From contig NZ_PDVP01000012.1 in the NCBI RefSeq assembly GCF_002727065.1, positions 1-64,000 of the forward strand: a stretch of 64,000 nucleotides of DNA, read 5' to 3'. The notes under the pieces are model-generated. The model was not told where the DNA came from, did not search any database, and saw only the letters and a program-made list of their open reading frames with translations. The position numbers and the translations under genes were made by a program. Position 1 is the stretch's first letter; the number at the start of each line of letters is the position of its first letter. This document shows, in pieces, positions 36,619 through 53,427 of the stretch. The DNA comes from Zhengella mangrovi (GTDB taxonomy: Bacteria > Pseudomonadota > Alphaproteobacteria > Rhizobiales > Rhizobiaceae).

Positions 36619-37392
36619 TCAGCCCAGATCTGCGCCCATCCTGATCGACAGGCTGGAGGCGATGCGCTTGATGTTCGCAATGATCCGCTCGCGGTCTTCG
36701 TCGTCAATGTCCTCGGCCAGGACGCTGACCGCCACGCCGGCAATCGGCATGTTGCGGGAATCGAGGACAGACGCGCCGAAGCAGACGATGCCCTCGGCCA
36801 CCTGCTGGTTGTCGACCGAATAGCCCCGCTTCCGGGTCTCGGCGAGTTCCTTCAGCAATTCGTCGATCGACTGCACGCTGTGCGGTGTTCGCGCCTCGGG
36901 CAGGCCGTTCGCGTACAGCTTCTTGACCTCGAAATCGCTCATGTAGCTGAGGAATGACTTTCCGGTCGCGGTGAACGCGGCCGGAAGACGCATCCCGGCG
37001 CGGAAGTCGACCAGCGAATGGCTGACCGCGGAATTGCGCGCCGCGATGTAGACGACCTCGGACCCTTCCAGCACCGTCAGCGTGATCGTCGCGCCGGGCA
37101 GTTCCGTCTCCTTGTCCCAGATCGATGCGAACTCCGTTGCCACGTCGGACTGGCGATTGAAGGCATTGGACCAGCGCATAAGGTGCGGGCCGAGCTGGTA
37201 GGTCTGGTCGGATCGTCGAATGAGAAGGTTGAGTTCGACCAGCGTCTGGCAGAGCGTATGGGTCGTGCTCTTGGCAAGCTCGAGTTCTCTCGCCAGGTCG
37301 GACAGGGTCGGGTGAACCCGGCAGCGGCTGACATGATCGAGAATGCGGGTGGCGCGTTCGACCGCAGGTACAAGTTTCGTCGCCTGAGCCAT
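36619..37392 (-). CDS. IclR family transcriptional regulator (BlcR-like context)
   Basis: A 257-residue regulator. The winged helix is near residues 6-70 (VPAVERATRILDHVSRCRVHPTLSDLARELELAKSTTHTL), followed by the IclR ligand domain (AARNSAVSHSLVDFRAGMRLP, FTATGKSFLSYMSD, KRGYSVDNQQVAEGIVCFGASVLDS). The start at 37392 has GGGAGGG upstream. Divergent from the lactonase/ABC/opsin operon. An IclR regulator (BlcR/AttJ) also controls the Agrobacterium gamma-butyrolactone operon. The twin GTTC-N7-TGAA sites between the genes are its probable operators. Confidence 0.9.
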   Translation of the reverse strand: MAQATKLVPAVERATRILDHVSRCRVHPTLSDLARELELAKSTTHTLCQTLVELNLLIRRSDQTYQLGPHLMRWSNAFNRQSDVATEFASIWDKETELPGATITLTVLEGSEVVYIAARNSAVSHSLVDFRAGMRLPAAFTATGKSFLSYMSDFEVKKLYANGLPEARTPHSVQSIDELLKELAETRKRGYSVDNQQVAEGIVCFGASVLDSRNMPIAGVAVSVLAEDIDDEDRERIIANIKRIASSLSIRMGADLG

Positions 37393-37431
37393 GGTCCCTC
37401 CCGAAAAGACCCATTGCCAACCGAATGTTCC

Positions 37432-37459
37432 TTGACAGTCAGAAAGATCGGTGGATAGT
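37432..37459 (+). promoter_or_regulatory. Candidate promoter of the lactonase/ABC/opsin operon
   Basis: TTGACA at 37432-37437 is a perfect -35; GATAGT at 37454-37459 after 16 bases is an acceptable -10 (4 of 6). The first GTTC-N7-TGAA operator begins at the next base, so a bound IclR protein would block the start site. Confidence 0.5.
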
Positions 37460-37494
37460 GTTCTTATCATTGAATTGTGTTCAGTATGTTGAAC
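37460..37494 (+). promoter_or_regulatory. Two tandem 16-bp IclR-type operator sites
   Basis: GTTC-N7-TGAAT at 37460-37475 and GTTC-N7-TGAAC at 37479-37494 are two copies of one dyad with starts 19 bases apart, close to two helical turns. The second has perfect GTTCA/TGAAC arms. BlcR is known to bind as a pair of dimers to adjacent inverted repeats, so two sites in this position fit an IclR repressor of similar type. Confidence 0.6.
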
Positions 37495-37582
37495 GATAGC
37501 CAGAAAGCAAGATCCTTTGCAAGTCTGACAAACGCATCGAACATCTTTTCTTTGTAGCTCAAGTGCTGTTTGGGAGGAGAGC

Positions 37583-37972
37583 ATGGCTATGAGCGTGAGG
37601 GACTGGGCTGCCCGGTTCAGCGAAGCCTCGGATCGTGATCCCGCGATCGCGGCAATGGCACGCCATTTTACCTGCGTTTATCTTTGGGACATGGGCGCCG
37701 TGCAGGTCATCGTCCGCATGGTCGATGGCCTGGTCCACGAGATCAACATTGCTCCGGGTCCGCTTGACTCCTACGATTTTGCCCTGCGTGCCAGCCCCGA
37801 GACCTGGCGCGAGTTCGCCCGGCGCGTTCCAGCGCCCATGTATCATGGCATCTGGTCCGCGAGCTTCCGCCGCGACCTGAAGCTCGAGGGCAATCTGCTC
37901 GTTCTCATGCAGAACCTCAGGAACTTCACCATCCAGTTCGAACTGTTGCGCAAGGTGGGTGTACCGGTGTGA
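37583..37972 (+). CDS. SCP2 sterol-carrier-like small protein
   Basis: A 129-residue soluble protein, first gene of the operon, RBS GGGAGGAGA. The C-terminal half (ASPETWREFARRVPAPMYHGIWSA then DLKLEGNLLVLMQNLRNFTIQF) resembles the SCP2 lipid-binding fold, in which a G-D/N-L-L-x-L-M helix closes a hydrophobic tunnel. The N-terminal half has VQVIVRMVDGLVHEINIAPGP, compatible with the SCP2 beta sheet. A role in binding a hydrophobic small molecule is inferred only from this resemblance. Confidence 0.6.
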   Translation: MAMSVRDWAARFSEASDRDPAIAAMARHFTCVYLWDMGAVQVIVRMVDGLVHEINIAPGPLDSYDFALRASPETWREFARRVPAPMYHGIWSASFRRDLKLEGNLLVLMQNLRNFTIQFELLRKVGVPV

Positions 37973-38033: not shown

Positions 38034-38882
38034 ATGGCCAAGCATTCCCCGGTCATCGGCCGTTACGTCACCATCGAGGTCGATGGCTGCGAATACAAGG
38101 TGTTCTACCTGCGCAACGGGTCCGGAACGCCGCTGGTCTGCCAGCACACCGCGGGCTGTCACAATCACCAGTGGCGCGACCTGCTGGAAGATCCGGAGAT
38201 TACCGCGAATTACGACGTGATCGCCTATGACCTTGCGCGTCACGGAAAGTCCGATCCGCCGCTCAACAAGGAGTGGTGGAAGGAGGAGTACCGGCTGACC
38301 GCCGAGCACTACATGAATTTCATCTTGGCCTTCTGCGATGCGCTGGACCTCGAAGACCCCATCTTCATGGGGTCGTCCTTCGGTGGCAACGTCGCGCTTC
38401 AGCTGGCGCTCCACCATCCCGACCGGTTTCGTGCTGTCATCCCGGTCGAGGCAGCCGAGCATGCGCCCGGGTTCTTCCTGGAATGGTGGCGTCACCCCCA
38501 TGCCAACGCGGCGCAGGTATGCGCCTCGGGTGTTTGGGACCTGATGGCGCCGCAAAGCCCGGACCGGGATCGCTGGCTGACCTGGCACTACTACACCCAA
38601 GGATCGGAGGTCTTCCAGGGCGACCTCTATTTCTATTCCGTCGACCATGATCTGCGCGGGCGCCTCGGCGACATCGACACCGGGCGCTGTCCGGTGATCA
38701 TGATGACGGGCACCTACGACTACCTGACTCCGCCGGAGGCAACCGAGAACACGGCCCGCCAGATCCCGGGGGGAATCTACATCGAGATGGAAGACATCGG
38801 GCATTTTCCAATGTCGGAGAACTACCCGGTCTTTTCGGTTTATCTGAAGGAAGCCCTTCGCCTCATCGAAGAGCGGCGCTGA
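38034..38882 (+). CDS. Alpha/beta hydrolase
   Basis: A 282-residue cytoplasmic hydrolase. The catalytic triad is visible: Ser115 in the nucleophile elbow GSSFGG, Asp229 in TGTYDY, and His257 in EDIGHFPMSE. The oxyanion region is QHTAGCHNHQWRDL. No signal peptide. The ATG at 38034 is chosen because the N-terminal beta strands start at VTIEVDGCEYKVFYL; the frame continues upstream without support. It may hydrolyse an ester or lactone feeding the downstream dehydrogenases. Confidence 0.87.
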   Translation: MAKHSPVIGRYVTIEVDGCEYKVFYLRNGSGTPLVCQHTAGCHNHQWRDLLEDPEITANYDVIAYDLARHGKSDPPLNKEWWKEEYRLTAEHYMNFILAFCDALDLEDPIFMGSSFGGNVALQLALHHPDRFRAVIPVEAAEHAPGFFLEWWRHPHANAAQVCASGVWDLMAPQSPDRDRWLTWHYYTQGSEVFQGDLYFYSVDHDLRGRLGDIDTGRCPVIMMTGTYDYLTPPEATENTARQIPGGIYIEMEDIGHFPMSENYPVFSVYLKEALRLIEERR

Positions 38883-38928: not shown

Positions 38929-39867
38929 ATGAAGATTATCGAATTCGATGAGAAAGGGCAGCGCGTCACGACCGAGGCGGGATCGTTCCGCTCGACGCTG
39001 GGTGCTGACAGTCTCGCCCCGCGTCCAAGTTTCAAGACGCCCGAACCGGAAGCCGCCGCGCGCAAGCGCGGCAACTCCTCGGGCATCGAGCTTCACATGT
39101 TCCAGACAGGCACGCTCCGGACCAAGGTGAAGTACATCAAGATGAACCAGGGCGAGGAAGACTTCGAGATTCCCGTGCCATGGTTCCTGATCAAGCATCC
39201 GGCCGGCAACGTGGTCATCGACGGCGGCAATGCCGTCGAGGCGGCCATCGACAAGCGCGGGCACTGGGGCGACGTGGTGGACGCCTATGACCCGATCATG
39301 GATGTTGCCGACAATTGCGCTGACCAGTGCCGCTCGGTCGGCGTCGATCCCCAATCCGTGCGTTATGTTCTCCAGTCCCACCTGCACCTCGATCACACCG
39401 GTGCCATCGGGCATTTTCCCAAGGCGCAGATCATCTGCCAGCGGGCAGAATACGAATACGCCTTCAACCCGCACTGGTTTTCGGCCGGCGCCTACATCCG
39501 CGCCGATTTCGACCGGCCCGGGCTGAACTGGAAATTCCTCGGCGGGGAATACACCGACAACTACGACCTGTTCGGTGACGGAACGATCCGCATGATCTTC
39601 ACTCCGGGCCATGCACCGGGGCACCAGTCATTCCTGGTCACGCTGCCGCGGACGGGTCCGGTCCTGCTGACGATCGATGCGGCCTACACGCTTGATCACT
39701 GGGAGGACAAGGCGCTGCCGGGCCTGGTCGTGTCGTCGGCCGACGCCGCCAACTCGGTGGCCAAGCTGCGGCGCATTGCCAGCGACACCAACGCCATGAT
39801 CGTCACGGGCCATGATCCGGAAAACTGGAAGACGTTCCGAAAGGCGCCGAAGGACTTTTACGACTGA
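38929..39867 (+). CDS. Metallo-beta-lactamase-fold lactonase (AttM/BlcC or AHL-lactonase type)
   Basis: A 312-residue dinuclear zinc hydrolase. Metal ligands: HLHLDH (His151, His153, Asp155, His156), His228 in TPGHAPGH, Asp250 in LLTIDAA, and His295 in VTGHDPENW. The GHDPENWKTFRKAP end is characteristic of AttM-type lactonases, which open gamma-butyrolactone and N-acyl-homoserine lactones. It is about 50 residues longer than AttM because of an N-terminal extension (residues 1-50). With the alcohol and aldehyde dehydrogenases at the operon's end, it could give hydroxy acid, semialdehyde, then diacid. Confidence 0.87.
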   Translation: MKIIEFDEKGQRVTTEAGSFRSTLGADSLAPRPSFKTPEPEAAARKRGNSSGIELHMFQTGTLRTKVKYIKMNQGEEDFEIPVPWFLIKHPAGNVVIDGGNAVEAAIDKRGHWGDVVDAYDPIMDVADNCADQCRSVGVDPQSVRYVLQSHLHLDHTGAIGHFPKAQIICQRAEYEYAFNPHWFSAGAYIRADFDRPGLNWKFLGGEYTDNYDLFGDGTIRMIFTPGHAPGHQSFLVTLPRTGPVLLTIDAAYTLDHWEDKALPGLVVSSADAANSVAKLRRIASDTNAMIVTGHDPENWKTFRKAPKDFYD

Positions 39868-39987: not shown

Positions 39988-41157
39988 ATGAAATTCTTGA
40001 AAGAACTGGCATTGGCCGTGGGCATTCTCGCCATCGGCTCCTCGGCCGTGCTGGCCGAGGGCGTGGACGAGATCAACCCGGAGGTCGCCAAGCGCCTCTA
40101 CAACCCCGACATGCTCGACCCCATGCAGCCGGTCGGGCCGAGCACGCTGCGTGACTTCAAGGCGAAGAACCCGCCGCCGTGGAAGATCGGCTACGCCTCG
40201 TCCTACGCCGGCAACACCTGGCGCGCCAACGCCATGGACGCGCTGCAGAACGAGATCATTCCCAAGTGGAAGGAACTCGGCCTGATCAGCGAAGTCGTTG
40301 TGACCCAGTCGAACCTCAACGACTCCACCCAGATCCAGCAGATGCGCCAGCTGGTCGACCAGGGCGTTGACGCCATTTTCGTCTGCTGCTCCAACCCGAC
40401 GGCCCTGAACCAGACCGTCCAGTACGCGATCGACAAGGGCGTTCCGGTCTTCTCCATGACCGGTTACCTGACGGCGCCCAGCGCCGTGAACTCTTCGGTC
40501 AATTACCAGGTTGCCGGTTTCGAGATCGGCAAGCGCATGGCCGATGAACTCGGCGGTGAGGGCAATGTCCTCGTCGTGGAAGGCATCCCCGGCACCTCCG
40601 GTTCCGACAGCCAGGACCGCGGCGTCAAGGCCGGCCTCGCCACCGCGCCTGGCATCAAGGTGGTCGGCTCCATCGCCGGCATGTGGACCGACCAGGTCGC
40701 CCAGGGCGAAGTGCAGAAGTGGCTCGCCACCCATCCGGGCAAGCTCGACGGCATCGTGGTGCAGTCCGCCGCCGAGATGGGCGTGCTGCGCGCCCTACAG
40801 CAATCCGGCCGGACGGGCGTCAAGGTCGCCATCGGTGGTGAACTCGGGGCGCTCTGCACCTGGCGCAAGAACCCCGACCTGATCTCGGTCGCCGTTCAGA
40901 CCTGGCCGCCGGCCGATGACGTGAACCTCATCTGGCGCATCATGATGCGCACGTTGCAGGGCCAGGGTCCGAAGGTTCAGTCGGTTCTCGTCGATCCGGT
41001 CACCATCACCCACGACGACGTGATGAAGCTGCTGCCGGAGAATTGCGACGAGAATGCGCAGAACTGGCTCAACGTCGGCGCCGAGAAGTGGGGTTCCGAG
41101 GAATACCTCGACCAGTTCTTCGTCAATCCTGCCGACCCGACCAAGTACAAGCCCTGA
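39988..41157 (+). CDS. Sugar-type ABC transporter solute-binding protein (second importer)
   Basis: Periplasmic Peripla_BP_4 protein, 389 residues, longer than usual (about 310-340). Signal peptide residues 1-23 (MKFLKELALAVGILAIGSSAVLA). A 40-residue N-terminal segment (GVDEINPEVAKRLYNPDML...) precedes the fold, which begins at WKIGYASSYAGNTWRANAM. Cleft hinge LVDQGVDAIFVCCSNPTALNQTV. RBS AAGGAGGAG is the strongest in the operon. Followed by a 26-base stem-loop. Confidence 0.88.
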   Translation: MKFLKELALAVGILAIGSSAVLAEGVDEINPEVAKRLYNPDMLDPMQPVGPSTLRDFKAKNPPPWKIGYASSYAGNTWRANAMDALQNEIIPKWKELGLISEVVVTQSNLNDSTQIQQMRQLVDQGVDAIFVCCSNPTALNQTVQYAIDKGVPVFSMTGYLTAPSAVNSSVNYQVAGFEIGKRMADELGGEGNVLVVEGIPGTSGSDSQDRGVKAGLATAPGIKVVGSIAGMWTDQVAQGEVQKWLATHPGKLDGIVVQSAAEMGVLRALQQSGRTGVKVAIGGELGALCTWRKNPDLISVAVQTWPPADDVNLIWRIMMRTLQGQGPKVQSVLVDPVTITHDDVMKLLPENCDENAQNWLNVGAEKWGSEEYLDQFFVNPADPTKYKP

Positions 41158-41232: not shown

Positions 41233-42981
41233 ATGACCGCAACCGAGCACGACATCACACAGACGGCAGCGAGGCGAGAGACCATCGCTGTCCGGAATGT
41301 GAAGAAGTTTTTCGGGCCGACCCGTGCGCTCGATGGCGTCAGCTTTTCGGCCTGCGCCGGGGAAATCCATGCCATCGTCGGCGGGAACGGTTGCGGCAAG
41401 TCCACCATGGCCAAGGTGGTCTCGGGAGTTCTGCCGATCGATTCCGGATCCGTGTCGATCCTGGGTGAGACGCCCTCGACCCCGGCCGAAAGCAAGGCGC
41501 TCGGTATTTCCACCGTCTACCAGGAAGTGTTGGTAGCCGATGAAAGTACCGTCGCGGACAACATCTTCATGGGCGCCGACGCGCTTTTCTCGAAAAACCT
41601 TTCGCACGAACGAAAGGTGCAGCGCGCCGCGCAGTTGATGAAGGACCTGGCCGGCGAGCCTGTCGATCCCCATGCGATCGCCGGTACTTTGCCGCTCGGC
41701 CTCAAGCAGTGGATCACGATTGCGCGTGCGCTCGTCAGCGAACCGAAGATCCTCATTCTCGACGAAAGTTCCGCGGCGCTCGATTTCGACAGCACCGAAC
41801 GGCTGTTCGCCAAGATGAGGGAACTGCGCGACAGCGGAACGACGATCCTGATCGTCACGCATCGCATTGCCGAACTGATCCGCATTTCCGATCGGGCAAC
41901 GGTCCTGCGCGACGGGCGCGATGTCGGTGTGCTCGAAAAGGAAGAAATCACCGAGAAGAACCTGCTCGCCCTGATGACGGGAGACGAGAGCGCGGATCAT
42001 GGCCATGGACACGCCGCCCCGCAGCCCGTCGACGATACACCGGCCATGGTTGGCGAGGGTATCGGCGTCTGGGCCGGAACGAAGCCGTTTGATTTCCGCC
42101 TGCGGCGTGGCGAGATCGTCGGGGTGGCCGGCCTCGACGGACAGGGCCAGGATGCGTTCGTCAGGGCCATCGCCGGCGTCGAGCCCGTGCTGACGGGAAC
42201 GGTCCGCGTACTGGACCGCAACGGCGACCGGCATTTCGTCCGCTCCCTTGCCGATGCGGTGAAAAACCGGATCGCCTATGTCTCCGGAGATCGCAAGCGG
42301 GAAGGCATTTTCGCCTCGCTGTCGATCTTCGAGAACATGGTGATGCCGCTCTACCGCGAGAAGAAGCGTGGCGGCATCCTCGGTCTGATCGACTGGGGAA
42401 CGCTGGGCGCGATCTTCAAGCGCGAAGCCGGGAATCTCCTGATCAAGTTCGGCCTGCGCGAGGATCGCATCACGTCACTGTCCGGTGGCAACCAGCAGAA
42501 GGTCTTGATCGGGCGCGGCTTCGCGATGCGTCCCGACGTGATCGTGCTCAACGATCCGGCTCGCGGTATCGACGTGGGAGCCAAGAGCGAACTCTACAAG
42601 CACCTGCGGACGTTTGCGGGTGAGGGGAAGTCCGTCGTTTACCTATCGTCCGAACTGGAGGAGTTCATCGGCTTCGCCACGCGCGTCATCGTGTTTCGCG
42701 ACGGCAAGCCCTTCGATGCTTTCGACGGGCGGACACTGGATCCCAAGAAGGTCCTCGAGGCGATGTTCGGCCAGACGGACGGTTCCGGTCTGGCCGCATC
42801 GCTGGATATCGCGCCGCGTCATGCTCCCGTGGCACCTCTTGATCGGGACAACACGCGAGATGCCATACCCGCTCAAAGGGCGGCGAAGCGCGATGGCCTG
42901 CCCAGGTCCATCCGGATCGTGGAGTTCGAGGGCGGTGTCCGCAAGGCGCGGGATGTCAACCCGGAAGGGCCGCGCCCATGA
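41233..42981 (+). CDS. Sugar-type ABC transporter double ATPase with C-terminal extension
   Basis: RbsA-like, 582 residues against about 500 usual. Domain 1: Walker A GGNGCGKSTMAKVVSG, signature degenerate as LPLGLKQWITIARAL, Walker B ILILDESSAALD. Domain 2: GVAGLDGQGQDAFVRAI replaces Walker A (normal degeneration), [15 protein letters not shown] and VIVLNDPARGID intact. The extra residues are a His/Asp-rich linker near 256-266 and a polar tail of about 70 residues after MFGQTDGSG. The tail has no recognisable domain. Overlaps the permease by 4 bases. Confidence 0.88.
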   Translation: MTATEHDITQTAARRETIAVRNVKKFFGPTRALDGVSFSACAGEIHAIVGGNGCGKSTMAKVVSGVLPIDSGSVSILGETPSTPAESKALGISTVYQEVLVADESTVADNIFMGADALFSKNLSHERKVQRAAQLMKDLAGEPVDPHAIAGTLPLGLKQWITIARALVSEPKILILDESSAALDFDSTERLFAKMRELRDSGTTILIVTHRIAELIRISDRATVLRDGRDVGVLEKEEITEKNLLALMTGDESADHGHGHAAPQPVDDTPAMVGEGIGVWAGTKPFDFRLRRGEIVGVAGLDGQGQDAFVRAIAGVEPVLTGTVRVLDRNGDRHFVRSLADAVKNRIAYVSGDRKREGIFASLSIFENMVMPLYREKKRGGILGLIDWGTLGAIFKREAGNLLIKFGLREDRITSLSGGNQQKVLIGRGFAMRPDVIVLNDPARGIDVGAKSELYKHLRTFAGEGKSVVYLSSELEEFIGFATRVIVFRDGKPFDAFDGRTLDPKKVLEAMFGQTDGSGLAASLDIAPRHAPVAPLDRDNTRDAIPAQRAAKRDGLPRSIRIVEFEGGVRKARDVNPEGPRP

Positions 42982-44441
42982 GCCAGGCCGGCATGACACT
43001 GGACGGAAATGGCGAGGCAGTGCCGGAGACCGAGGCGGCCGCAATGGTCCGCGGCGGCCGCGCCAATCCCTTCCTGCTGGTCCCCATCACGCTGTTTTTC
43101 CTGCTGCTCGGTCTTGCCGTTCTCCGCTCGCCGAGCCTCATGACCTCCTATGGCCTCGGCAGCGCCGTGATCGTCGCGACGCCGCTGATCCTGGCAACCT
43201 ATGCGCTGATGGCATCCGTCATCTCCGGCCGTGGCACGGTCGACCTGTCCATCGGCCCGCTCATTGGCTTCATCAACGTCACGCTGATCCAGCTCTACGC
43301 GGCGGAAATCCTCCAGAACCCGATTGCGATCTTCGCCTATGCGATCGCGCTCGGGGCCCTTTACCAGTTCGTTTTTGCGCTGATCGTCATCTACGTTCGC
43401 GTGCAGCCCATCATCGTGTCGCTGTCGGGCTACCTGGCGCTGTCCGGCATCAACCTCGTGATCCTGCCCCGGCCAGGCGGCATGGCCCCCCAGTTCATGG
43501 CGGACTGGGGCCTCGGCACCTCGATTTTCTCTCCGGTCTTCGTCATCCTGGTGCTGGCGACGCTGGCATGGCTCCTGTTCACGCGGACGGCCTTCTACAC
43601 CCACCTCCGCCTCATGGGATCAGACGAGCGCGCGGCCTACACCTCGGGCGTGCCGATCTTCATCGTGCGCATCGGTGCCCACATCATCTCCGGGGGTTTT
43701 GCAGGCCTTGCCGCGATCGCCTTCACGGCGCTGATCTCGTCCGGCGATCCCTCACAGGGAACCACATACACGCTGATCGCCGTAACCGCACTGGTGCTCG
43801 GCGGCGCCTCCCTTGGCGGCGGACGGGCCGGCGTCTTCGGGTCCTTCCTTGGCGCGGTGAACCTCTATCTGATCACATACGTGCTGGCGACGTTCAACTT
43901 CGGCGCGGTCCAGAGTTTCGTCACCAACCTGGCCTACGGGTCGATCCTGGTGATCTCCCTGCTGCTGACCCTCATCATCCCCTTCATCCAGCGCCACATC
44001 CACAATTTCTCGCCGGTTCTCTATTTCGTCGTCCTTGGCGTGGTCGCGCTCGGGGTCATTCTTCACGCGACCAACGACCACGATCCCCGGGCGCGCCGCG
44101 CGCCGGCGGAAACGGCCGTCGTGACGATGCAGGTGCTCGAACCGATCCCTGCGGACCAGCTTTACGTCGGCCCTCTCGAAGTCGCGCGGCCCGATGCCAG
44201 GACGGACGAATTGCGCCGCGATGCCGTTCCGATGATCCTGTCGGCCATCCTCCTGGTGGTGATCGCGGTCTTCCTGCGCCTTGCGGTCAGCCGTTCGAAC
44301 CGCAGGACCGTTGCGCCCGCGGTGGCCGTGGTGGTGGCCTCGCTGGTGCTTCTTGCAGCCTATCTCGTGCGGGAGCAGGCGGATGACGGTGCGGGCACAC
44401 CGCCGCAGGCACCGGCCGGAAATACGGAGCGCGTCCAATGA
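42978..44441 (+). CDS. Sugar-type ABC transporter permease, enlarged (1)
   Basis: BPD_transp_2 permease, 487 residues against about 320 usual. The core spans about residues 25-340 (SVISGRGTVDLSIGPLIGFINVT; VTALVLGGASLGGGRAGVFGSFLGA). It is followed by an extra hydrophobic segment, a cytoplasmic or periplasmic linker with YVGPLEVARPDARTDELR, and two more hydrophobic segments (about 410-435 and 447-470). The C-terminal extension is unusual for the family and has no homologue I recognise. Coupled by 4-base overlaps to both neighbours. Confidence 0.87.
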   Translation: MSQAGMTLDGNGEAVPETEAAAMVRGGRANPFLLVPITLFFLLLGLAVLRSPSLMTSYGLGSAVIVATPLILATYALMASVISGRGTVDLSIGPLIGFINVTLIQLYAAEILQNPIAIFAYAIALGALYQFVFALIVIYVRVQPIIVSLSGYLALSGINLVILPRPGGMAPQFMADWGLGTSIFSPVFVILVLATLAWLLFTRTAFYTHLRLMGSDERAAYTSGVPIFIVRIGAHIISGGFAGLAAIAFTALISSGDPSQGTTYTLIAVTALVLGGASLGGGRAGVFGSFLGAVNLYLITYVLATFNFGAVQSFVTNLAYGSILVISLLLTLIIPFIQRHIHNFSPVLYFVVLGVVALGVILHATNDHDPRARRAPAETAVVTMQVLEPIPADQLYVGPLEVARPDARTDELRRDAVPMILSAILLVVIAVFLRLAVSRSNRRTVAPAVAVVVASLVLLAAYLVREQADDGAGTPPQAPAGNTERVQ

Positions 44442-45814
44442 CCGTTTCGGCCAATCCTCCGTCCCTCGGACTGCCGGCGACCATCATCGGCCTCGTCGCC
44501 GGTGTCATCCTGACCGCGATCGGCGTCGTCTACGGTTTCATCCAGGGGCTGTCCGTCCAGATCATCATCCTGTCGGCCATCGCCACGCTCGGCGCCTTCG
44601 TCTGGGCCTGGCGGTTCGTGCTCGGACAGTTCATGAACCAGGATGCCGAACCGCTGGGCGAGGGGCAGATCAGCGAGGGACGGCGCGTCTGGCTCCAGTT
44701 CCGTCCGGCCATCTACGGCCTTCTGGTCCTGCTGGCCCTTTTCATCATCCTGTCGCTCACCATCGACGGCTTCTTCAATGTCTGGAACGTCGTCTCGTTC
44801 CTGATCATCCTGACCATCATCGTGCTGACACGGACTCTTGGGCGCCATTTCCAGGAAAACCGCTCGGCCTTCATCGGCATCATGGTCCTGTGCGGACTGT
44901 TTTCGATCGGGTCGATGAACATCGAGGGGTTCGCCTCCGCCAACAACATCAAGTCGATGCTGTTGTTTGCATCGTTTCTCGGAATCGCATCGGTCGGCCA
45001 GACGCTGGTGGCGCTTCTCGGCGGTCTCGACCTGTCCATTCCCTTCATCATCGGCGCCGCAAACGTCGGCCTGCTCTACCTCATCGGACTCGGCGTCCCG
45101 CCCTGGCTGGCCGCCATCATCGTGCTGGCCATTGGCACGCTGCTGGGCGTGATCAACGGCCTGTTGAGCTACCGCCTGCAGGGGCAGGCGCTGATCGTGA
45201 CGCTCGGCACCGGCTTTGCCATCTCCGGCGGCGTCCAGATCATCACCTCGATCGGTTCGGCCTATTCCGGCAACGTCTTCGGCCAGGTGCCGCCCTGGTT
45301 GTCCAATCTCGCCGCAATGAACGGCTCGACCTTCGGCCTGCCGTTTCCGCCGGTGATTGCCATCTGGGGCCTGGTGCTGATCGTCCTGATCGCCGGCATG
45401 CGGCTGACGGTCTATGGCCGCTACCTCTACGCGCTCGGCGTGAACAGGACATCGGCCAAGCGGGTGATGATTTCGGAACTGGGATACTGGGTGACCATGT
45501 ATGCCATCTCCGGCTTTTTCGCCGCGCTGACCGGCGGGCTTCTGCTCGGCTGGTCGGGTGGCGGGTTCATCGGCGTTGGCGACCAGTATCTCTTCCTGAC
45601 GCTTGCCGCTGTGGTCGTGGGCGGAACGTCGCTGCTCGGCGGGCAGGGCGGATACGGCTTCACCGTCATCGGCGTGCTGGTTCTCCAGGTTCTCTCGTCA
45701 TTCCTGATCGGCATCGGCCTGGATTTCGAATGGCAGCAATTCATTTTCGGTCTTCTGATCCTGCCGATGGTCGCGCTTTACGCGCGCTCCCCGCACATCA
45801 GAACCCAAATCTAG
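44438..45814 (+). CDS. Sugar-type ABC transporter permease, enlarged (2)
   Basis: BPD_transp_2 permease, 458 residues. An N-terminal addition of about 100 residues contains two hydrophobic segments (residues 10-34 and 38-58) and a charged linker before the core. The core shows SVGQTLVALLGGLDLSIPFIIGAANVG and VVVGGTSLLGGQGGYGFTVIGVLVLQVL. With the other permease it would give a complex that carries additional helices at both the N- and C-termini, which is atypical. Stop at 45814. Confidence 0.87.
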   Translation: MTVSANPPSLGLPATIIGLVAGVILTAIGVVYGFIQGLSVQIIILSAIATLGAFVWAWRFVLGQFMNQDAEPLGEGQISEGRRVWLQFRPAIYGLLVLLALFIILSLTIDGFFNVWNVVSFLIILTIIVLTRTLGRHFQENRSAFIGIMVLCGLFSIGSMNIEGFASANNIKSMLLFASFLGIASVGQTLVALLGGLDLSIPFIIGAANVGLLYLIGLGVPPWLAAIIVLAIGTLLGVINGLLSYRLQGQALIVTLGTGFAISGGVQIITSIGSAYSGNVFGQVPPWLSNLAAMNGSTFGLPFPPVIAIWGLVLIVLIAGMRLTVYGRYLYALGVNRTSAKRVMISELGYWVTMYAISGFFAALTGGLLLGWSGGGFIGVGDQYLFLTLAAVVVGGTSLLGGQGGYGFTVIGVLVLQVLSSFLIGIGLDFEWQQFIFGLLILPMVALYARSPHIRTQI

Positions 45815-45825
45815 GAAGACATGCC

Positions 45826-45864
45826 ATGAAGTCGGACATGATACGCAAGGGGAGTGCAAGGTGA
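45826..45864 (+). CDS. Possible 12-codon leader peptide coupled to the opsin-like gene
   Basis: ATG at 45826 opens MKSDMIRKGSAR and stops at TGA 45862-45864. AGGAAG lies 7-8 bases upstream of the ATG, and the stop overlaps the opsin start as TGATG. This would couple opsin translation to the leader. Only the sequence geometry supports it; chance cannot be excluded. Confidence 0.3.
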   Translation: MKSDMIRKGSAR

Positions 45865-46571
45865 TGGCGGTGTTCGAGACAGCCGACCTGACGGCGGCGA
45901 GTTATTCGACGGCCTTTCTGGGACTGGTCGCGACGAGTGTCCTGCTGCTCATCGGCACGGGTTGGGTCGGCCGCGCCTGGAAACTCCCCGTGACGCTCTG
46001 CGCGCTGGCCGCTCTCGTTGGCGTGGTGGCGATGTACGAGGCCCGCACCGCCTGGGCGGCCGCGAAGAGCGTGCCGGTGGTGTACCACTACGTCGGCTGG
46101 GCGATATCGATGCCGCTGCAGGTGCTGGCGCTCTATTTCCTGGCGCTGACCAGCGGCCGGCTCGGAATAGGGCTGTTCTGGCGGCTGAGCGTCGTGTCGG
46201 TCCTGATGGTCTTCGTCCGCTACCTCGGCGAGGCCGGCTTCATGCATGCCACGCTCGCCTTCCTCATCGGCCTCGTCTTCTGGCTGTACATCCTCGGAGA
46301 ACTGTTCTTCGGCAGGATGGACGAAGTCATCCGCAAGTCGCCGAGCGAGACGCTGCGCCGAGGCTATTTCTGGCTTCGGCTGATCGTCACGGTGGGCTGG
46401 GCCATCTACCCGCTGGGCAATTTCATCACGTCCTTTGCCGGCTATGCCGACGACGGGGCGCTGTCGGTTGCCTACAACATCGCCGATTTCCTGAACCGGA
46501 TGGCCTTTGGGGCCGCCGTGCTGGCAACCGCCATGCTCCAGGGCGAGGAGGCGCGTCATGACCGGAACTGA
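45864..46571 (+). CDS. Microbial-opsin-like seven-helix protein lacking the retinal lysine
   Basis: A 235-residue membrane protein with seven hydrophobic segments near 13-33, 39-60, 74-95, 103-124, 127-149, 168-191 and 200-225, the size and layout of type 1 rhodopsins. Helix C reads HYVGWAISMPLQVLAL, helix F GWAIYPLGN, helix G YNIADFLNRMAFG. Conserved: Trp79, Pro84, Trp179, Tyr182, Pro183, Asp208. Changed against proteorhodopsin: Schiff-base Lys is Arg212 (codon CGG at 46497-46499), proton acceptor Asp is Gly78, donor Glu is Ala89, and helix-C Arg is His75. It cannot bind retinal by the usual Schiff base and is unlikely to pump protons. A GTG at 45861 is an alternative start. In the operon between ABC permeases and a flotillin; role unknown. 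Confidence 0.82.
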   Translation: MAVFETADLTAASYSTAFLGLVATSVLLLIGTGWVGRAWKLPVTLCALAALVGVVAMYEARTAWAAAKSVPVVYHYVGWAISMPLQVLALYFLALTSGRLGIGLFWRLSVVSVLMVFVRYLGEAGFMHATLAFLIGLVFWLYILGELFFGRMDEVIRKSPSETLRRGYFWLRLIVTVGWAIYPLGNFITSFAGYADDGALSVAYNIADFLNRMAFGAAVLATAMLQGEEARHDRN

Positions 46572-46622
46572 GCGACCGAACGTCAACCAGAAACGTCCGT
46601 ACAATTGTGAAGGAACAAATCA

Positions 46623-48329
46623 ATGAAGGGTGCAGATTTCATTGCAATCATCATCCTTGCAGCGATAGTCATCGCGGTCTGCGCCTATCTCCTGCATTGG
46701 CTGTACCGCCGCTCGACAAAGGATATTTCCTTCGTACGAACCGGCTTCGGCGGCGAGAAGGTCGTGATGGGGGGCGGCGCCTTCGTGCTCCCGATCCTTC
46801 ACGACATCACCGAGGTCAACATGAACACGCTGCGCCTGGAAATCCTCCGGGCGCGGGAGAAGTCGCTGATCACGAAGGACCGGATGCGTGTCGAGCTGAC
46901 GGTCGAATTCTACGTCCGTGTCCAGCCGGAGGTCGATGCGGTGGCCACCGCCGCCCGGTCGCTCGGCAATCGCACCATGCACGCCGAGCAGCTCAAGGAT
47001 CTCATCCAGGGCCGGTTCGTGGATGCCATGGGCGGGGCGGCCGCCAAGATGACGCTGGAGCAGATCCACGAGCATCGCTCGGACTTCGTCAAGGAGGTCC
47101 GCACCGAGGTCGCGGAGAGCCTGGCGCTGGACGGTCTGGAGCTTGAATCGGTCTCGCTGACATCGCTCGACCAGACCGACATTTCCCTCTTCGACCCGTC
47201 GAACACCTTCGACGCCGAGGGTCTGACGATCCTGACCGAGCAGATCGAGAGCCGGAAGAAGAAGCGCAACGACATCGAGAAGGACACGATGATCGCCATG
47301 CGCGCCAAGAACCTGGAAGCGGAAAAGAGATCTCTCGAGATCCAGCGCGACAGCGAATATGCGCGCCTGGCCCACGAGGCGGAAGTCGCGATCCAGCGCG
47401 CCGAGCGCAAGGCGGAAATCTCCAACGAGAACGCACGCCGCGAGCGCGAGATCGAGGAGATCAAGCTCTCCGAGCGCAGGGCTGTCGAGAGCGCCCGCAT
47501 TTCGATGGAGCAGGAAGTCGAGCGCATCGAGGTCAAGCGCCGGGAAGCGCTCCAGCTTGAGGAGCAGGCCCGCGAGATCGCCGTTTCGATGAAGTCGAAG
47601 GAGCGTTCGGAAGCGCAGGCGCTCGCGGAGGCTGCCCGCGCCAAGATGATCGAGGCGCAGGAAAAGGTGCAGACCATCCGCGACACCGAGATCGCCAACC
47701 GTCAGAAGGCAATCGAACTGCTGGAAGCGCAGAAGGTCGCCGAGTCGGAAGCCGCGCGCCAGAAGATCCTCGCCGAAGCAGAAAAGGCGGCGGCAAAGGA
47801 CCGTGCCGATGCCGACAAGATCGCCGTTGCGGCACTCGCCGAGCGTCTCGCGGTCGAGGCCGAAGGCAAGCGCAAGCTCAACGAGGCGGAAAACCTGCGT
47901 TCCGATGCGTCCCGCCGCTCGGGCCTGCACAAGGCGCTGGTGGAAAACCTGCCGGCAATCATTCGCGAAAGCGTCAAGCCTATGGAGAAGATCGAGGGTA
48001 TCAAGATCCTCCACGTCGACGGCATGCCGGGCTTCTCCGGCACTGCTGGCGGTGCTGGCGGTGGCACGGGAGGCGCGGGCGGCGAGGGCACCGGTCCCAG
48101 CGATCCGAACCTGGCCGACCAGGTGGTGTCCTCGGCGTTGCGCTACCGGTCGCAGGCGCCCTTCGTGGACCAGTTGCTGAACGAGATCGGGCTGAGCGCC
48201 GACACCGTTCACCGGCCGCATACCCTGCAGGACCTGTCGAAAATCGTCTACACGGATCCCTCTTCGGTCGAAGGAAAGGCGAAAAAGACGCCGGCTTCCG
48301 GAAGCGCCGGCAAGCCGCCCGCGAAGTGA
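46623..48329 (+). CDS. Flotillin-family (SPFH, YqiK-like) membrane scaffold protein
   Basis: A 568-residue protein anchored by one N-terminal segment (residues 7-28). The SPFH/band-7 domain covers about 30-190 (RTGFGGEKVVMGGGAFVLPILHDI; MRVELTVEFYVRVQPE). A long Glu/Ala/Lys/Arg coiled coil runs from about 205 to 430, typical of flotillins that oligomerise into membrane microdomain scaffolds. A Gly-rich linker (about 473-490) and a C-terminal segment near 497-545 follow. It lies 51 bases after the opsin-like gene and may organise the membrane proteins of this operon; that is inference. Confidence 0.88.
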   Translation: MKGADFIAIIILAAIVIAVCAYLLHWLYRRSTKDISFVRTGFGGEKVVMGGGAFVLPILHDITEVNMNTLRLEILRAREKSLITKDRMRVELTVEFYVRVQPEVDAVATAARSLGNRTMHAEQLKDLIQGRFVDAMGGAAAKMTLEQIHEHRSDFVKEVRTEVAESLALDGLELESVSLTSLDQTDISLFDPSNTFDAEGLTILTEQIESRKKKRNDIEKDTMIAMRAKNLEAEKRSLEIQRDSEYARLAHEAEVAIQRAERKAEISNENARREREIEEIKLSERRAVESARISMEQEVERIEVKRREALQLEEQAREIAVSMKSKERSEAQALAEAARAKMIEAQEKVQTIRDTEIANRQKAIELLEAQKVAESEAARQKILAEAEKAAAKDRADADKIAVAALAERLAVEAEGKRKLNEAENLRSDASRRSGLHKALVENLPAIIRESVKPMEKIEGIKILHVDGMPGFSGTAGGAGGGTGGAGGEGTGPSDPNLADQVVSSALRYRSQAPFVDQLLNEIGLSADTVHRPHTLQDLSKIVYTDPSSVEGKAKKTPASGSAGKPPAK

Positions 48330-48377: not shown

Positions 48378-48397
48378 CGACAGACTGGAGCCGAGCC

Positions 48398-48823
48398 ATG
48401 TCCAAGCCTGCCAGGGTTGAGCGTGATCTTTTGGTCTTTTCGATCTGGGCCGTGCTCGGAAGCGGCGGGCTGTGTTTCCTGCTCGAAGGCTTCTCCCGTG
48501 ACTCCTATCTTCTTTCCCTGATCGGGATTGCCGCAATCGTCGCCAGTTTCGTGGCCCACTTCATCGTCAACGGCATTTTCGGCGTCGGCTTCGGCCCGGG
48601 CGAGGCTGCCCTCGGCATCGGCGTCTTCGGGGTGATCCTGATGGTCTTCATTGGAGGATGGGCAATCGGTGCCCTGTCGGAAAGCGACTACTGGTCGGGC
48701 CTGACCCTTTTCGCCGTGCTCGCCCTCGGGCTGCCCGTCTACCTGTCGACCCGCTACGGGCTGCGCGGCGCATTCTCGCATTTCCACGTCCGGCACGCCG
48801 ATTTCGAGGATTCCGATCAATGA
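48398..48823 (+). CDS. Small membrane protein preceding a sodium:solute symporter
   Basis: A 141-residue protein with four hydrophobic segments near 10-30, 37-60, 67-90 and 101-116, and an acidic C-terminus (HVRHADFEDSDQ). No family recognised. Its stop overlaps the symporter start by ATGA, so the two are made together; small membrane subunits are known beside some SSS-family transporters, and this one may play such a part. RBS GGAG eight bases before the ATG. Confidence 0.7.
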   Translation: MSKPARVERDLLVFSIWAVLGSGGLCFLLEGFSRDSYLLSLIGIAAIVASFVAHFIVNGIFGVGFGPGEAALGIGVFGVILMVFIGGWAIGALSESDYWSGLTLFAVLALGLPVYLSTRYGLRGAFSHFHVRHADFEDSDQ

Positions 48824-50769
48824 CCGGTCTTCACCACGCGATCTGGCTGCCGCTGTCGGTCTTCTTCTATGCGATGGTGATGCTGTACTGGGTGCGGGTG
48901 TCCATCGCCGGCAACAGGGGCGCGGACGGCTTCTTCTCCGCCAGCCACGGCCTGCCGCCATGGCTCGGCGCGCTGGTCACTGCCGGGGTCAGCCTGACGG
49001 GCTGGTTCGTGCTCGGCGGAACGCAACTGGTCGCCCGGGACGGCTTTACGCTGCCGGTACTCGTTTCAGCCGGGGTTCTGCTGGCGCTTCCCGGTGTGAT
49101 CTTCTTCAAGCGGCTCTGGTTCGCAGCCGAGCGCCTGCATGTTTCGTCGCTGGCCGACGTCTTCCGTCTCTACTACGGCAGCCCGTTCCTCGTCGTCGTC
49201 ACGACTGCCATCGCGGTCCTTTTCGCGCTGGGCTTTTCCGGACTGCAGGTGCGCATGCTGTCCGGCCTCGTCGAGGCCATGACGGGGGGCGCCGTCTCCG
49301 AACTGGCCGCGACGACCATTTTCGGGTTCATCCTGTTTGCCGGCGTCGGGATCGGCGGGATGCGGTCGATCGGCTATTTCGGCGTGATCCAGACGGTGCT
49401 GGTCCTGTCGGCCATCGTCTTCGTGGCCGGGTTCGCCGTCGTTTCGGCCGGCGGCTTTGAACCCGTCAATGCCCGTTTGCTGGCGCTCAGTCTTCAACCG
49501 GAGACCGCCCGGCTTTTCTCGGTCGGCAAGGTCATCGAGTTCACCGCCGGTCTTGGCCGCGGCGGTGACTATGCGACATCGCATACCGCGCTCGCCAATC
49601 TCAGCCTTGCGTTCGCCCTGATGGGCTTCCAGGCAAGCCCGCTCGTTTTCAAGATCCTGTTCTCGACCCGGAGGCCCAGTGGCGTGGCGGCAGGGCAGAT
49701 CTGGGTTACGGCCGGCTTCCTCGGCGCCTTGATCGCCGGCGGGATCATGCTGACCGGCGCCGTCGGGCTCGTCGACGACGGTTTCTCGATCGTCACCCTG
49801 TTCCAGGGCCTCCATGACCGTTCGCCGTGGTTCGCGGCCTGGATGTTCATCGGCGTGGCGGCCGGGGTGCAATTGCTCGCCGGTCTCTCGCTCTTTGCCG
49901 CGGCTGAAGGCCTGGTGCGCCACGTCTACAGGCCGTACTTCCATTCGGCCCTGTCCAAGGCGGCGACCGTGACCATCACCCGCATCGCCATTGCCATCCT
50001 GGCCGTCCTCGCGATGATCCTCCAGACCATCGCGCCGGTCACGCTTTCCGCCCTGGCGGCATTGGCGCTGCCGCTGGCCTTCCAGTTGTGGACCCCGCTC
50101 CTCGGCGTTTCATGGCTGGGGTGGATCACCCGGCAGGCCGCGGCCACCGGCGTCGGTTTCGGGATTGCCGGGGTCCTCCTGACCGAGCCGCTCGGCTACC
50201 AGGTCCTGTCCTTCTTCGGCCTGGAACTGCCGTGGGGCCGCTGGCCCTGGACGATCCATTCCGCTCTTTGGGGAATGGCGGCCAATCTTGCCGCCGTGCT
50301 GATCATTTCCGCGATCACCAACAGGACGGTCGTGCGGCAGGAGGCGGCCGAGATCCGCGCGCTCTTCTCGGGCCTGCTCGCCATTTCTCCCAAAGCCCGG
50401 GACTGGCGGTCATTCGCCTGGTCGATCGTGATCGCTTGGTTTTTCCTCGCGGCCGGACCGGGCCTGATCTTCGGGAATACCGCCTTCGTGTCAGGCGAGG
50501 GCGAGACGACCGCCTGGCTTCTCGGCATGCCGTCGCTCTGGGCCTGGGGCATTGCAGGCTGGGTCAGCGGCCTGGGGATGATCTGGTTCCTGGCCTACCG
50601 GATGGAGATGGCGAACCCGTCGCAGGCCGTGATCCCCGCCTACACGCCGCCATTGAAGCTTCGCCGCAACAATACCGAGATCGAACAGGAGCGGCTGCGG
50701 ATCCTGTTCATGGCCGGCGCGATCGTCTTCGTCCTGGCGGTTCTCGCCGCATTCATATTCAGCCGGTGA
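48820..50769 (+). CDS. Sodium:solute symporter (SSS) family transporter
   Basis: A 649-residue inner-membrane protein with 13-15 hydrophobic segments, longer than the usual 500-residue SSS. SSS-like features: GADGFFSASHGLPPWLGALVTAGVSLTGWFVLGGTQ at residues 32-67, the RLHVSSLADVFRLYYGS segment, and FSGLQVRMLSGLVEAMTGG. The C-terminus adds about 120 residues with three more helices. The substrate cannot be deduced; the operon suggests a monocarboxylate or lactone-derived acid. The frame opens earlier inside the preceding gene, but MTGLHHAIW at 48820 is the coupled start. Confidence 0.82.
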   Translation: MTGLHHAIWLPLSVFFYAMVMLYWVRVSIAGNRGADGFFSASHGLPPWLGALVTAGVSLTGWFVLGGTQLVARDGFTLPVLVSAGVLLALPGVIFFKRLWFAAERLHVSSLADVFRLYYGSPFLVVVTTAIAVLFALGFSGLQVRMLSGLVEAMTGGAVSELAATTIFGFILFAGVGIGGMRSIGYFGVIQTVLVLSAIVFVAGFAVVSAGGFEPVNARLLALSLQPETARLFSVGKVIEFTAGLGRGGDYATSHTALANLSLAFALMGFQASPLVFKILFSTRRPSGVAAGQIWVTAGFLGALIAGGIMLTGAVGLVDDGFSIVTLFQGLHDRSPWFAAWMFIGVAAGVQLLAGLSLFAAAEGLVRHVYRPYFHSALSKAATVTITRIAIAILAVLAMILQTIAPVTLSALAALALPLAFQLWTPLLGVSWLGWITRQAAATGVGFGIAGVLLTEPLGYQVLSFFGLELPWGRWPWTIHSALWGMAANLAAVLIISAITNRTVVRQEAAEIRALFSGLLAISPKARDWRSFAWSIVIAWFFLAAGPGLIFGNTAFVSGEGETTAWLLGMPSLWAWGIAGWVSGLGMIWFLAYRMEMANPSQAVIPAYTPPLKLRRNNTEIEQERLRILFMAGAIVFVLAVLAAFIFSR

Positions 50770-50797: not shown

Positions 50798-51955
50798 ATG
50801 ACCCCGTTCACGTTCAACACGTCGAAGTCGATCCGCTTCGGAGCCGGTGCGATCGGGCAGTTGGGCGACATCGTTTCGTCGGAAATCGGCAGCCGGGTCC
50901 TGCTCGTCACCGATCCTGGCATGATTGCCACCGGCCTTGTCGAACGGGCGCTGGATGCCCTGCGCAAGGCAGATATCACGGTGGAGATGTTTTCCGATGT
51001 CGAGGCCGATCCGCCGGAAGCCGTTGTCCTTGAGGCTGCAAGGCGCGCCATGGAGGCCGGCATCGATGGTGTCGTCGGCTTCGGCGGCGGCTCCTCGCTT
51101 GACGTCGCCAAGCTGGCGGCCCTGCTTGCCCATGGCAAGGAGACGCTAGCCGATGTCTACGGTGTCGGTAACGCCAAGGGCCCCAGGCTGCCGCTGGTTC
51201 TCGTGCCAACGACCGCCGGGACCGGCTCCGAGGTGACGCCGATATCGATCGTGACCACCGGTACCAATGAGAAGATGGGCGTCGTATCGCCGGTTATCCT
51301 GCCCGATATCGCGCTGCTCGACCCGGAACTCACCTATGGCCTGCCGCCGCATATCACGGCAGCAACCGGGATCGATGCCATGGTGCATGCGATCGAAGCC
51401 TATGCGTCGGCCAGCGCCAACAACAATCCGGTGTCGCGCATGCTGGCGACCCAGGCGCTCACGCTGATGGGCGGTTCCGTCCTGAAGGCAGTGCGCAACG
51501 GCGCCGACACCGAAGCCCGGTCCAACATGCTGCTGGGTTCCATGCTGGCCGGCCAGGCCTTCGCGAATTCGCCCGTCGCCGCCGTCCACGCGCTGGCCTA
51601 TCCGCTCGGGGGCCATTTCCACATCCCGCACGGCCTCTCCAATGCCCTGGTGCTGCCCCACGTCCTCCGGTTCAACATCGTCACGTCGCCGTCGCCCTAC
51701 GCGGAACTGGCCCCGTTCGCATTTCCCGACCTGGCGGATCTCGAAGGCCAGGCGCGCGCAGCGGCCTTCTGCGACCGGCTGGCCGACCTTTCCGTGGCCT
51801 GCGGCCTCCAGCCCAATCTCCGCGCGATGAACATCCCGGAAGACGTATTGCCGAAACTGGCCTCGGACGCGATGAACCAGACGCGTCTGCTCGTCAACAA
51901 TCCGCGCCCGCTGACCGAGGCGGATGCGCTCGCCATCTATACTGCGGCCTACTGA
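50798..51955 (+). CDS. Iron-containing alcohol dehydrogenase (BlcB/GHB-dehydrogenase type context)
   Basis: A 385-residue type III NAD(P)-dependent dehydrogenase. NAD-binding GGGSSLDVAK near residues 93-102 and VPTTAGTGSEVTP near 139-151. The metal site is GIDAMVHAIEAY (Asp and His) plus AVHALAYPLGGHFHIPHGLSNA (His residues). All expected ligands are seen. It would oxidise an omega-hydroxy acid to the semialdehyde for the next gene's product, as BlcB does with 4-hydroxybutyrate. RBS AGGAGA; 28 bases after the symporter. Confidence 0.9.
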   Translation: MTPFTFNTSKSIRFGAGAIGQLGDIVSSEIGSRVLLVTDPGMIATGLVERALDALRKADITVEMFSDVEADPPEAVVLEAARRAMEAGIDGVVGFGGGSSLDVAKLAALLAHGKETLADVYGVGNAKGPRLPLVLVPTTAGTGSEVTPISIVTTGTNEKMGVVSPVILPDIALLDPELTYGLPPHITAATGIDAMVHAIEAYASASANNNPVSRMLATQALTLMGGSVLKAVRNGADTEARSNMLLGSMLAGQAFANSPVAAVHALAYPLGGHFHIPHGLSNALVLPHVLRFNIVTSPSPYAELAPFAFPDLADLEGQARAAAFCDRLADLSVACGLQPNLRAMNIPEDVLPKLASDAMNQTRLLVNNPRPLTEADALAIYTAAY

Positions 51956-51975: not shown

Positions 51976-53427
51976 ATGACGCTTGAGCTCAAAGACCCGA
52001 CGCTTCTGCAGAGCCATGCCTTTCTGGGCGGAGAATGGGTCGCGGGAAGCAGGACTTTTCCGGTTCTCAATCCGGCCACTGGCGAAAAGATCGCCGATGT
52101 GGCCGATCTGACGCCGCAGGATGTGGCCACCGCGATCGACCTGGCCTACGACGCGCAAAGGGAATGGCGCAACCGCACCGCCAAGGAGCGTTGCGCCGTT
52201 CTGCTGAAGTGGAACGACCTGCTGATGGAAAACCAGGATGACCTCGGTGCCATCCTGACCGCGGAAATGGGAAAGCCCCTGGCCGAGGCAAAGGGCGAGA
52301 TCGCCTATGGCGCGTCCTTCATCCAGTGGTTCGCGGAAGAGGCACGCCGGGTCTATGGCGACGTCATCCCGGGCCACCAGGCCGACAAGCGTATCGTCGT
52401 CATCAAGCAGCCCATCGGGGTCGTCGGATCGATCACGCCGTGGAATTTCCCCAACGCCATGATCGCCAGGAAGGTCGGTCCGGCGCTGGCTTCGGGGTGC
52501 TCCTTTGTCGGCAGGCCCGCCGAGAAGACGCCGCTGTCGGCGCTCGCCATGGCCGTGCTTGCCGAGCGGGCAGGGGTGCCGAAGGGCGTTCTGTCCATCA
52601 TCACCAGTTCCGATTCCAAGGGGGTCGGCCTTGAACTCTGTACGAACCCGAAGGTGCGCAAGCTGACCTTCACCGGATCGACGGAAGTGGGCCGCATCCT
52701 GATGAAACAGTGCTCGCACGATATCAAGAAACTGTCGCTTGAACTCGGCGGCAATGCGCCGTTCCTGGTCTTCAACGATGCCGACCTGGATGCGGCTGTC
52801 GAAGGCGCGATGATCGCCAAGTACCGCAACTCCGGCCAGACATGCGTCTGCGCCAACCGGATCTATGTCCAGAGCGGGGTCGCGGCGGCATTCGCCGAAA
52901 AACTGGCGGCGGCCACCGCGGGCCTGACGGTCGGAAACGGAATGGACCAGGGCGTCAACATCGGGCCGCTGATCGATACGGCCGGCCTGCAGAAGGTCGA
53001 GGACCACGTTTCCGATGCCGTGTCGAAAGGGGCCCGGGTGCTGACCGGCGGCAAGCGGTCCGACCTTGGTGGCACCTTCTTCCAGCCGACGGTGCTGATG
53101 GACGTGGCGAGGGGAATGAAGATCCTCTCGGAGGAAACCTTCGGCCCGGTCGCGCCGATCATTACCTTCGAGACGGTCGAGGACGGGATCGCGCTTGCCA
53201 ATGACACCGAGTTCGGCCTGGCCGCCTATTTTTACGCGCGCGATATCTCGACGATCTGGAAGGTGGCCGAGGAACTGGAAAGCGGCATGGTCGGGATCAA
53301 CACCGGTCTCGTGTCGACGGCCGAAGCGCCGTTCGGCGGCATCAAGTCGTCCGGCCTCGGGCGCGAAGGCTCGAAATACGGCATGGATGAATTCCTGGAG
53401 ATCAAGTACCTGTGCATGGCGGTCTAG
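51976..53427 (+). CDS. NAD(P)-dependent succinate-semialdehyde-type aldehyde dehydrogenase
   Basis: A 483-residue aldehyde dehydrogenase. Cofactor-site PWNFPNAMIARKVGPAL near residues 156-172, TGSTEVGR near 233-240, catalytic Glu in ELGGNAPF and catalytic Cys in SGQTCVCANR near residue 289. The tandem C-x-C and overall length match GabD-type enzymes. It would complete oxidation to the dicarboxylate (succinate if the substrate is succinate semialdehyde). Last gene of the operon. No clear terminator before the convergent LysR gene. Confidence 0.92.
   Translation: MTLELKDPTLLQSHAFLGGEWVAGSRTFPVLNPATGEKIADVADLTPQDVATAIDLAYDAQREWRNRTAKERCAVLLKWNDLLMENQDDLGAILTAEMGKPLAEAKGEIAYGASFIQWFAEEARRVYGDVIPGHQADKRIVVIKQPIGVVGSITPWNFPNAMIARKVGPALASGCSFVGRPAEKTPLSALAMAVLAERAGVPKGVLSIITSSDSKGVGLELCTNPKVRKLTFTGSTEVGRILMKQCSHDIKKLSLELGGNAPFLVFNDADLDAAVEGAMIAKYRNSGQTCVCANRIYVQSGVAAAFAEKLAAATAGLTVGNGMDQGVNIGPLIDTAGLQKVEDHVSDAVSKGARVLTGGKRSDLGGTFFQPTVLMDVARGMKILSEETFGPVAPIITFETVEDGIALANDTEFGLAAYFYARDISTIWKVAEELESGMVGINTGLVSTAEAPFGGIKSSGLGREGSKYGMDEFLEIKYLCMAV

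Follow-up and report, generated by a model that had tools for sequence, protein, structure and literature searches.

Zhengella mangrovi encodes, in a catabolic operon within the window analysed here (a 64,000-nucleotide stretch of contig NZ_PDVP01000012.1), an opsin that, judging from its tree position, predicted fold and gene order, is a lysine-less flotillin-associated rhodopsin (FArhodopsin). Because this opsin, whose pigment-holding parts have been lost in dozens of bacteria from soil and sea, has been strictly kept beside a flotillin and an importer whose permeases carry extra membrane segments, its function probably lies with the importer and not in light sensing, and we lean somewhat towards the view that it acts as a retinal-free seven-transmembrane (TM) accessory subunit of the upstream ABC importer in a flotillin-organised membrane patch.

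Identification of an opsin with a dismantled retinal site

The 235-aa product, numbered from the Met encoded at 45864, matches the Pfam family Bac_rhodopsin (E=2.3e-20, 73.5 bits; cut-off 24.6), in agreement with the earlier note, which had called it opsin-like from its sequence. Its closest solved structures by sequence are the flotillin-associated rhodopsins 9r21 and 9r23 (E about 1e-42), followed by proteorhodopsins. An AlphaFold2 model built from 20 family members is a seven-helix membrane protein (pLDDT 87, pTM 0.85), which Foldseek aligned to PsFAR, the protein of 9r21 and 9r23, with a TM-score of 0.93 and to the best proteorhodopsins with 0.86-0.88. When phmmer and MAFFT were used to align the protein with solved structures and with proteorhodopsins, Arg212 aligned with the retinal Schiff-base Lys of helix G, Gly78 with the acceptor Asp, Ala89 with the donor Glu and His75 with the helix-C Arg, exactly the replacements that the earlier note had named, and W79, W179, Y182, P183 and D208 were found to be retained. 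Two observations that the note had said would speak against it, namely a Lys elsewhere in helix G and a fold other than that of an opsin, were not made: no other Lys was detected in helix G of the alignment, and the fold is as described above. The seven-helix fold of retinal-binding type-1 rhodopsins is therefore present and their Schiff-base Lys absent, and neither the acceptor Asp nor the donor Glu of proton-pumping proteorhodopsins is found in helix C. A salt bridge may link D208 to R212 across one helix turn and take the place of the Schiff base and its counterion. NCBI annotation is misleading for such proteins, in that it names them bacteriorhodopsin and gives them an ion-transport term.

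Relationship to FArhodopsins and other lysine-less opsins

A 2023 study of marine genomes described the FArhodopsins (PMC10308929). They are abundant in the sea, and the leading proposal is that they aid proteorhodopsin in dim light. Adjacency to flotillin is their signature (PMC10308929; structures 9r21 and 9r23), a point that the earlier note had missed. Members from freshwater metagenomes that lack the Lys have Gln, Thr, Leu or Arg instead (PMC10308929), so that lysine loss, including replacement by Arg, is not new. The marine proteins have a DTT, DTL or DNI motif in helix C, from which the lysine-less freshwater ones diverge (PMC10308929); the corresponding residues of the Zhengella opsin are G78, S82 and A89. 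In helix D, R119 replaces a Gly found in every aligned proteorhodopsin. PsFAR carries Glu120 at this position, and PDB entry 9r23 is its double mutant H84V/E120G, presumably designed to open the pocket.

In a sister clade (L115, L116, L117, L119 and L137, the last on a Shinella replicon), the Lys is replaced by Leu. This clade likewise has R119 and G78 and occurs in the same kind of operon, as do Lys-bearing (K-type) FArhodopsins (L075-L079, L118 and L120). L120 lies on a 4-kb contig end, with one TAG within the match. In an opsin tree computed after removal of the trait columns, the Arg and Leu clades were joined at 100/100, and both, together with the K-type sequences and 9r21, formed one group (100/95) nested in the proteorhodopsin family. 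According to alignment and tree, the acceptor Asp had become Gly and the helix-D Gly had become Arg before the Arg and Leu clades separated. The Leu that replaces the Lys could have evolved from Arg or independently from Lys, and the tree is compatible with either.

The opsin shares with FArhodopsins their branch, the best solved match in both sequence and fold, a flotillin directly downstream, a blocked retinal pocket, and an alpha/beta hydrolase, an iron-containing alcohol dehydrogenase (Fe-ADH) and a sodium-symporter-like gene in the operon. However, marine members have the Lys and a true proteorhodopsin beside them in streamlined genomes, whereas in the Arg clade Arg is fixed, the Asp-to-Gly and Gly-to-Arg119 changes have occurred, and the protein is the sole opsin of larger Rhizobiales and Rhodobacterales genomes. 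The FArhodopsin paper (PMC10308929) mentions neither an ABC importer nor a permease extension. Rh-noK of betaproteobacteria (Yamauchi 2019), as summarised in PMC10308929, is also a lineage-conserved type-1 opsin without the retinal Lys; according to that summary it is related to xanthorhodopsin, forms a tandem with a functional rhodopsin and pumps again once the Lys is restored, whereas the Arg-clade opsin has no such partner and has lost the pump residues and the pocket Gly as well. Haloarchaeal opsin-related proteins (PMC4915679) are type-1 opsins without a canonical retinal site for which a non-light function, namely taxis to non-light stimuli, was proposed, whereas the Arg-clade opsin is bacterial and tied to an importer and a flotillin.

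Organization of the opsin operon

Table 1. Genes of the opsin operon and the divergent regulator gene upstream of it in the window
Feature	Coordinates	Strand	Evidence or remark
IclR-family regulator	36619..37584	-	divergent, upstream of operon
Alpha/beta hydrolase	38034..38882	+	
AttM-family lactonase	38929..39867	+	NCBIfam NF045700, 429 bits (cut-off 390)
Periplasmic substrate-binding protein	39988..41157	+	Peripla_BP_4, E=1.9e-37
ABC importer ATPase, two ABC domains, CUT2 type	41233..42981	+	ABC_tran, two stretches
ABC permease PermA	42978..44441	+	extra C-terminal membrane segment (about residues 335-487)
ABC permease PermB, CUT2 type	44438..45814	+	BPD_transp_2; extra N-terminal four-helix segment, residues 1-140 (44438-44857)
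Opsin, lysine-less, FArhodopsin type, 235 aa	45864..46571	+	ORF (ATG at 45864, stop ends at 46571), Pfam, alignment, AlphaFold2, Foldseek
Flotillin, SPFH/Band_7 and Flot, 568 aa	46623..48329	+	Pfam Flot, E=1.3e-35; Band_7, E=1.2e-15
Small protein, about four predicted TM segments	48398..48823	+	no Pfam match
Large membrane protein, weakly SSF-like (sodium:solute symporter)	48820..50769	+	E=0.02, below cut-off
Iron-containing alcohol dehydrogenase (Fe-ADH)	50798..51955	+	
Succinate-semialdehyde dehydrogenase (SSADH)-type ALDH	51976..53427	+	TIGR01780, 703 bits (cut-off 646)

Pfam and NCBIfam matches bear out the earlier description of a catabolic operon that includes genes for an ABC importer and for a flotillin (Table 1). 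The gene order, from the alpha/beta hydrolase to the SSADH as tabulated, is the same in nearly all relatives, and the place of the opsin is fixed across at least two orders. The flotillin gene starts 52 bases downstream of the opsin on the same strand (46571 to 46623) and directly follows it in all opsin loci that extend far enough. The alpha/beta hydrolase is 79-93% identical in most opsin operons and about 45% identical in Leu-type operons, and the binding protein is similar to sugar-type proteins of the CUT2 group without matching a specific one. The enzyme families suggest hydrolysis of an ester or lactone followed by oxidation of the hydroxy acid to succinate. The blcABC/attKLM lactone catabolism system shares the AttM lactonase, the alcohol dehydrogenase and the succinate-semialdehyde dehydrogenase with this operon, which adds a dedicated CUT2-type importer, the opsin, the flotillin and the alpha/beta hydrolase.

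Several further features of these loci were observed. The small four-TM and SSF-like ORFs (48398-50769) overlap at their ends, and both diverge faster than the opsin. Histidine-kinase-like and response-regulator-like genes (34629-36523) lie just upstream of the divergent IclR gene, and the minus strand at 29138-34765 encodes another set of genes for a sugar-type ABC importer, along with a lactonase-like (SMP-30-like) gene. In Hoeflea sp. IMCC20628 (L136), the operon resides on a 123-kb plasmid, again with an IclR gene upstream, and the opsin is annotated as 'bacteriorhodopsin' with an ion-transport term. Two cold-seep plasmids, CP070278.1 ('Dysgonomonadaceae', 246,192 bp) and NZ_CP066788.1 (Martelella lutilitoris, 246,197 bp), carry the operon at equal identity and are likely one replicon, one of the two entries being filed under a wrong taxon. 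A phage origin was rejected, as a PHROGs search returned zero matches.

Association of the opsin with modified permeases

Importer, opsin and flotillin co-occur in Arg-, Leu- and K-type operons, with the importer core present in all such loci that are long enough; the Zhengella operon has PermA, PermB, flotillin and the alpha/beta hydrolase in common with the K-type loci L075-L079 and L118. In these importers, four predicted TM helices precede the core of PermB, and extra TM segments follow that of PermA. Among 397 genomes of the order, an extended PermB was found in 14, all of which have a FArhodopsin-type opsin (14/14), and a core-only relative of PermB in seven, none of which has the opsin (0/7; Fisher p 8.6e-6, a value that ignores kinship). 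The N-terminal extra of PermB measures about 135-155 aa in opsin operons versus 11-21 aa in opsin-less loci with clear starts, and the C-terminal extra of PermA 130-162 aa (418-481 aa in the K-type) versus 9-26 aa. Automatic start calls were off in five loci (L013, L042, L076, L126 and L131), in which the open frame continues further or its first Met comes late. Direct reading of six of the seven opsin-less importer loci, from which the short lengths above were taken, revealed neither opsin nor flotillin. The PermA extensions vary much among clades; those of the K-type loci L078 and L118 (418-433 aa, with many hydrophobic segments) are far longer than those of the Arg and Leu clades. The structure model of PermB has low confidence (pLDDT 67.5), and searches of its extension in PDB and Pfam gave zero matches.

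Opsin-bearing PermB sequences form one clade in the tree (99/100), which points to one association kept through long divergence instead of many independent ones; the opsin-permease association may thus be a single evolutionary event preserved by the operon. Since the permeases are modified wherever the opsin is present, the link to the importer is stronger than the earlier note saw. A role as accessory subunit of the importer is the best-supported explanation of these data; under it the opsin, which co-occurs with the permease extensions, would be in physical contact with the permeases. However, flotillin arrives together with the opsin, so that the extensions could dock flotillin alone. It is also conceivable, although we regard it as unlikely, that the opsin serves flotillin alone as scaffold or anchor, nucleating its assembly, and that the importer is merely one client in the operon. 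Opsin-flotillin adjacency is the sole constant in marine FArhodopsins (PMC10308929), and the position of flotillin directly after the opsin in all long loci agrees with such a function, but the importer core is also present in all Arg-, Leu- and K-type loci of sufficient length, and the structure of its permeases changes along with the presence of the opsin.

Ligand sensing and retinal use

The earlier note had suggested that the protein may bind another hydrophobic ligand or act as a structural or sensory subunit. The structural role stands as a possibility, but the sensory one is weaker, because no transducer, kinase or cyclase gene was found in the operon (37959 to 53427). For the ligand our analysis yielded no positive evidence; retinal-free proteoopsin can hold decanoate in its retinal pocket (8cnk; PMC11322631), which keeps a ligand-binding role open. 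A seven-TM sensor for a fatty acid, lactone or acyl-homoserine lactone in the emptied pocket would also fit the AttM-type lactonase in the operon and the non-light sensors proposed among haloarchaeal opsin-related proteins (PMC4915679). Because signalling genes are missing and the invariant Arg119 on the floor of the pocket is a poor fit for a hydrophobic chain, we consider this reading improbable.

A Bac_rhodopsin search detected no second opsin in the Z. mangrovi genome or in the 42 relatives, so the true proteorhodopsin paralogue seen beside marine FArhodopsins is absent, and the role proposed for the marine proteins, that of complementing a proton pump alongside them in the cell, was rejected for the Arg clade. 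The retinal-forming BCD (Blh/BCD) family was found in 0 of these 43 genomes and was also absent from three genomes with K-type FArhodopsins (G227, G321 and G399); as a positive control, the same search matched 9 of 15 other genomes, all with proteorhodopsin-type opsins. Three of the 42 close relatives encode RPE65-type oxygenases, which have many roles; the Z. mangrovi genome itself encodes none. That the opsin is retinal-free is well supported, and the absence of covalent retinal use is close to certain. Retinal or another carotenoid product could in principle be acquired from outside and bound without a Schiff base, with light modulating the importer: some proteorhodopsin bacteria without retinal synthesis may scavenge retinal (PMC11322631), W79, W179, Y182 and D208 are kept, and a few hosts have carotenoid-oxygenase-type genes. 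This is very unlikely, however, for a protein with no Lys, an Arg at the helix-D Gly and no counterion Asp in helix C, in genomes that lack BCD and, in the case of Z. mangrovi and 39 of its 42 close relatives, also an RPE65-type gene.

Conservation and selection

Close relatives were collected, one genome per species, with peptide patterns that left out residues 78, 89 and 212, so that the scan was not selective for the states at these sites. It found 42 relatives, 55-86% identical to the opsin and almost all from Rhizobiales and Rhodobacterales; a phylum-wide sample added few more. Arg occupies position 212 in all 42 close-relative sequences that reach it. G78 and A89 are each conserved in 43/43 and H75 in 42/43 (exceptions in the alignment are Gln in L042 and Pro in L127), and R119 is invariant (42/42). 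Four Arg codons are used at R212 and six at R119, the median pairwise dN/dS is 0.17, and the opsin is under strong purifying selection. Conservation, synonymous variation and dN/dS together show that R212 reflects neither chance nor decay. The earlier view that it is not a single recent error is thus upheld by its conservation, but not by the codon: a change from AAR to CGG indeed needs at least two base changes, yet the path AAG>AGG>CGG runs via Arg with a synonymous second step, so that the codon proves nothing about age. A decayed or mis-sequenced gene was ruled out by the conservation of R212, G78 and A89 with the low dN/dS. The idea of a functionless, decaying proteorhodopsin relic, to which the loss of every pump residue might point, has practically no chance against this selection, the many invariant residues and the fixed operon place.

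Proposed role and implications

Under the importer-subunit reading, a proteorhodopsin-type opsin with its Lys still in place would first have become part of an operon that encoded an importer, a flotillin and hydrolytic catabolic enzymes, as supported by the K-type relatives. The retinal site was then dismantled, as alignment and tree show, by the change of the acceptor Asp to Gly and of the helix-D Gly at the pocket floor to Arg, and by that of the Lys to Arg or Leu. The extra permease helices, present only where opsin and flotillin occur, would provide a docking site for the opsin, the flotillin or both. The complex may import an ester- or lactone-like solute, as the enzymes and the blc/attKLM route suggest, which would be converted towards succinate via the alpha/beta hydrolase, the AttM-type lactonase, the Fe-ADH and the SSADH. 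More tentatively, and with rather less confidence than in the accessory role itself, we propose that the opsin is an obligate, light-independent subunit that docks on the permease helices in a flotillin assembly, and that FArhodopsins as a whole, those of the sea among them, would share this function from their common origin.

The existence of an Arg clade without another opsin, a retinal synthase or the retinal Lys speaks against a light-related function being what FArhodopsins have in common. New here are the cultured Rhizobiales and Rhodobacterales hosts, the Leu-bearing sister clade and the link to an ABC importer, which is now named as a candidate partner of a FArhodopsin-type opsin. With the system found in cultured bacteria, e.g., relatives of Hoeflea, Ciceribacter, Ensifer and Roseovarius, deletion tests become possible.
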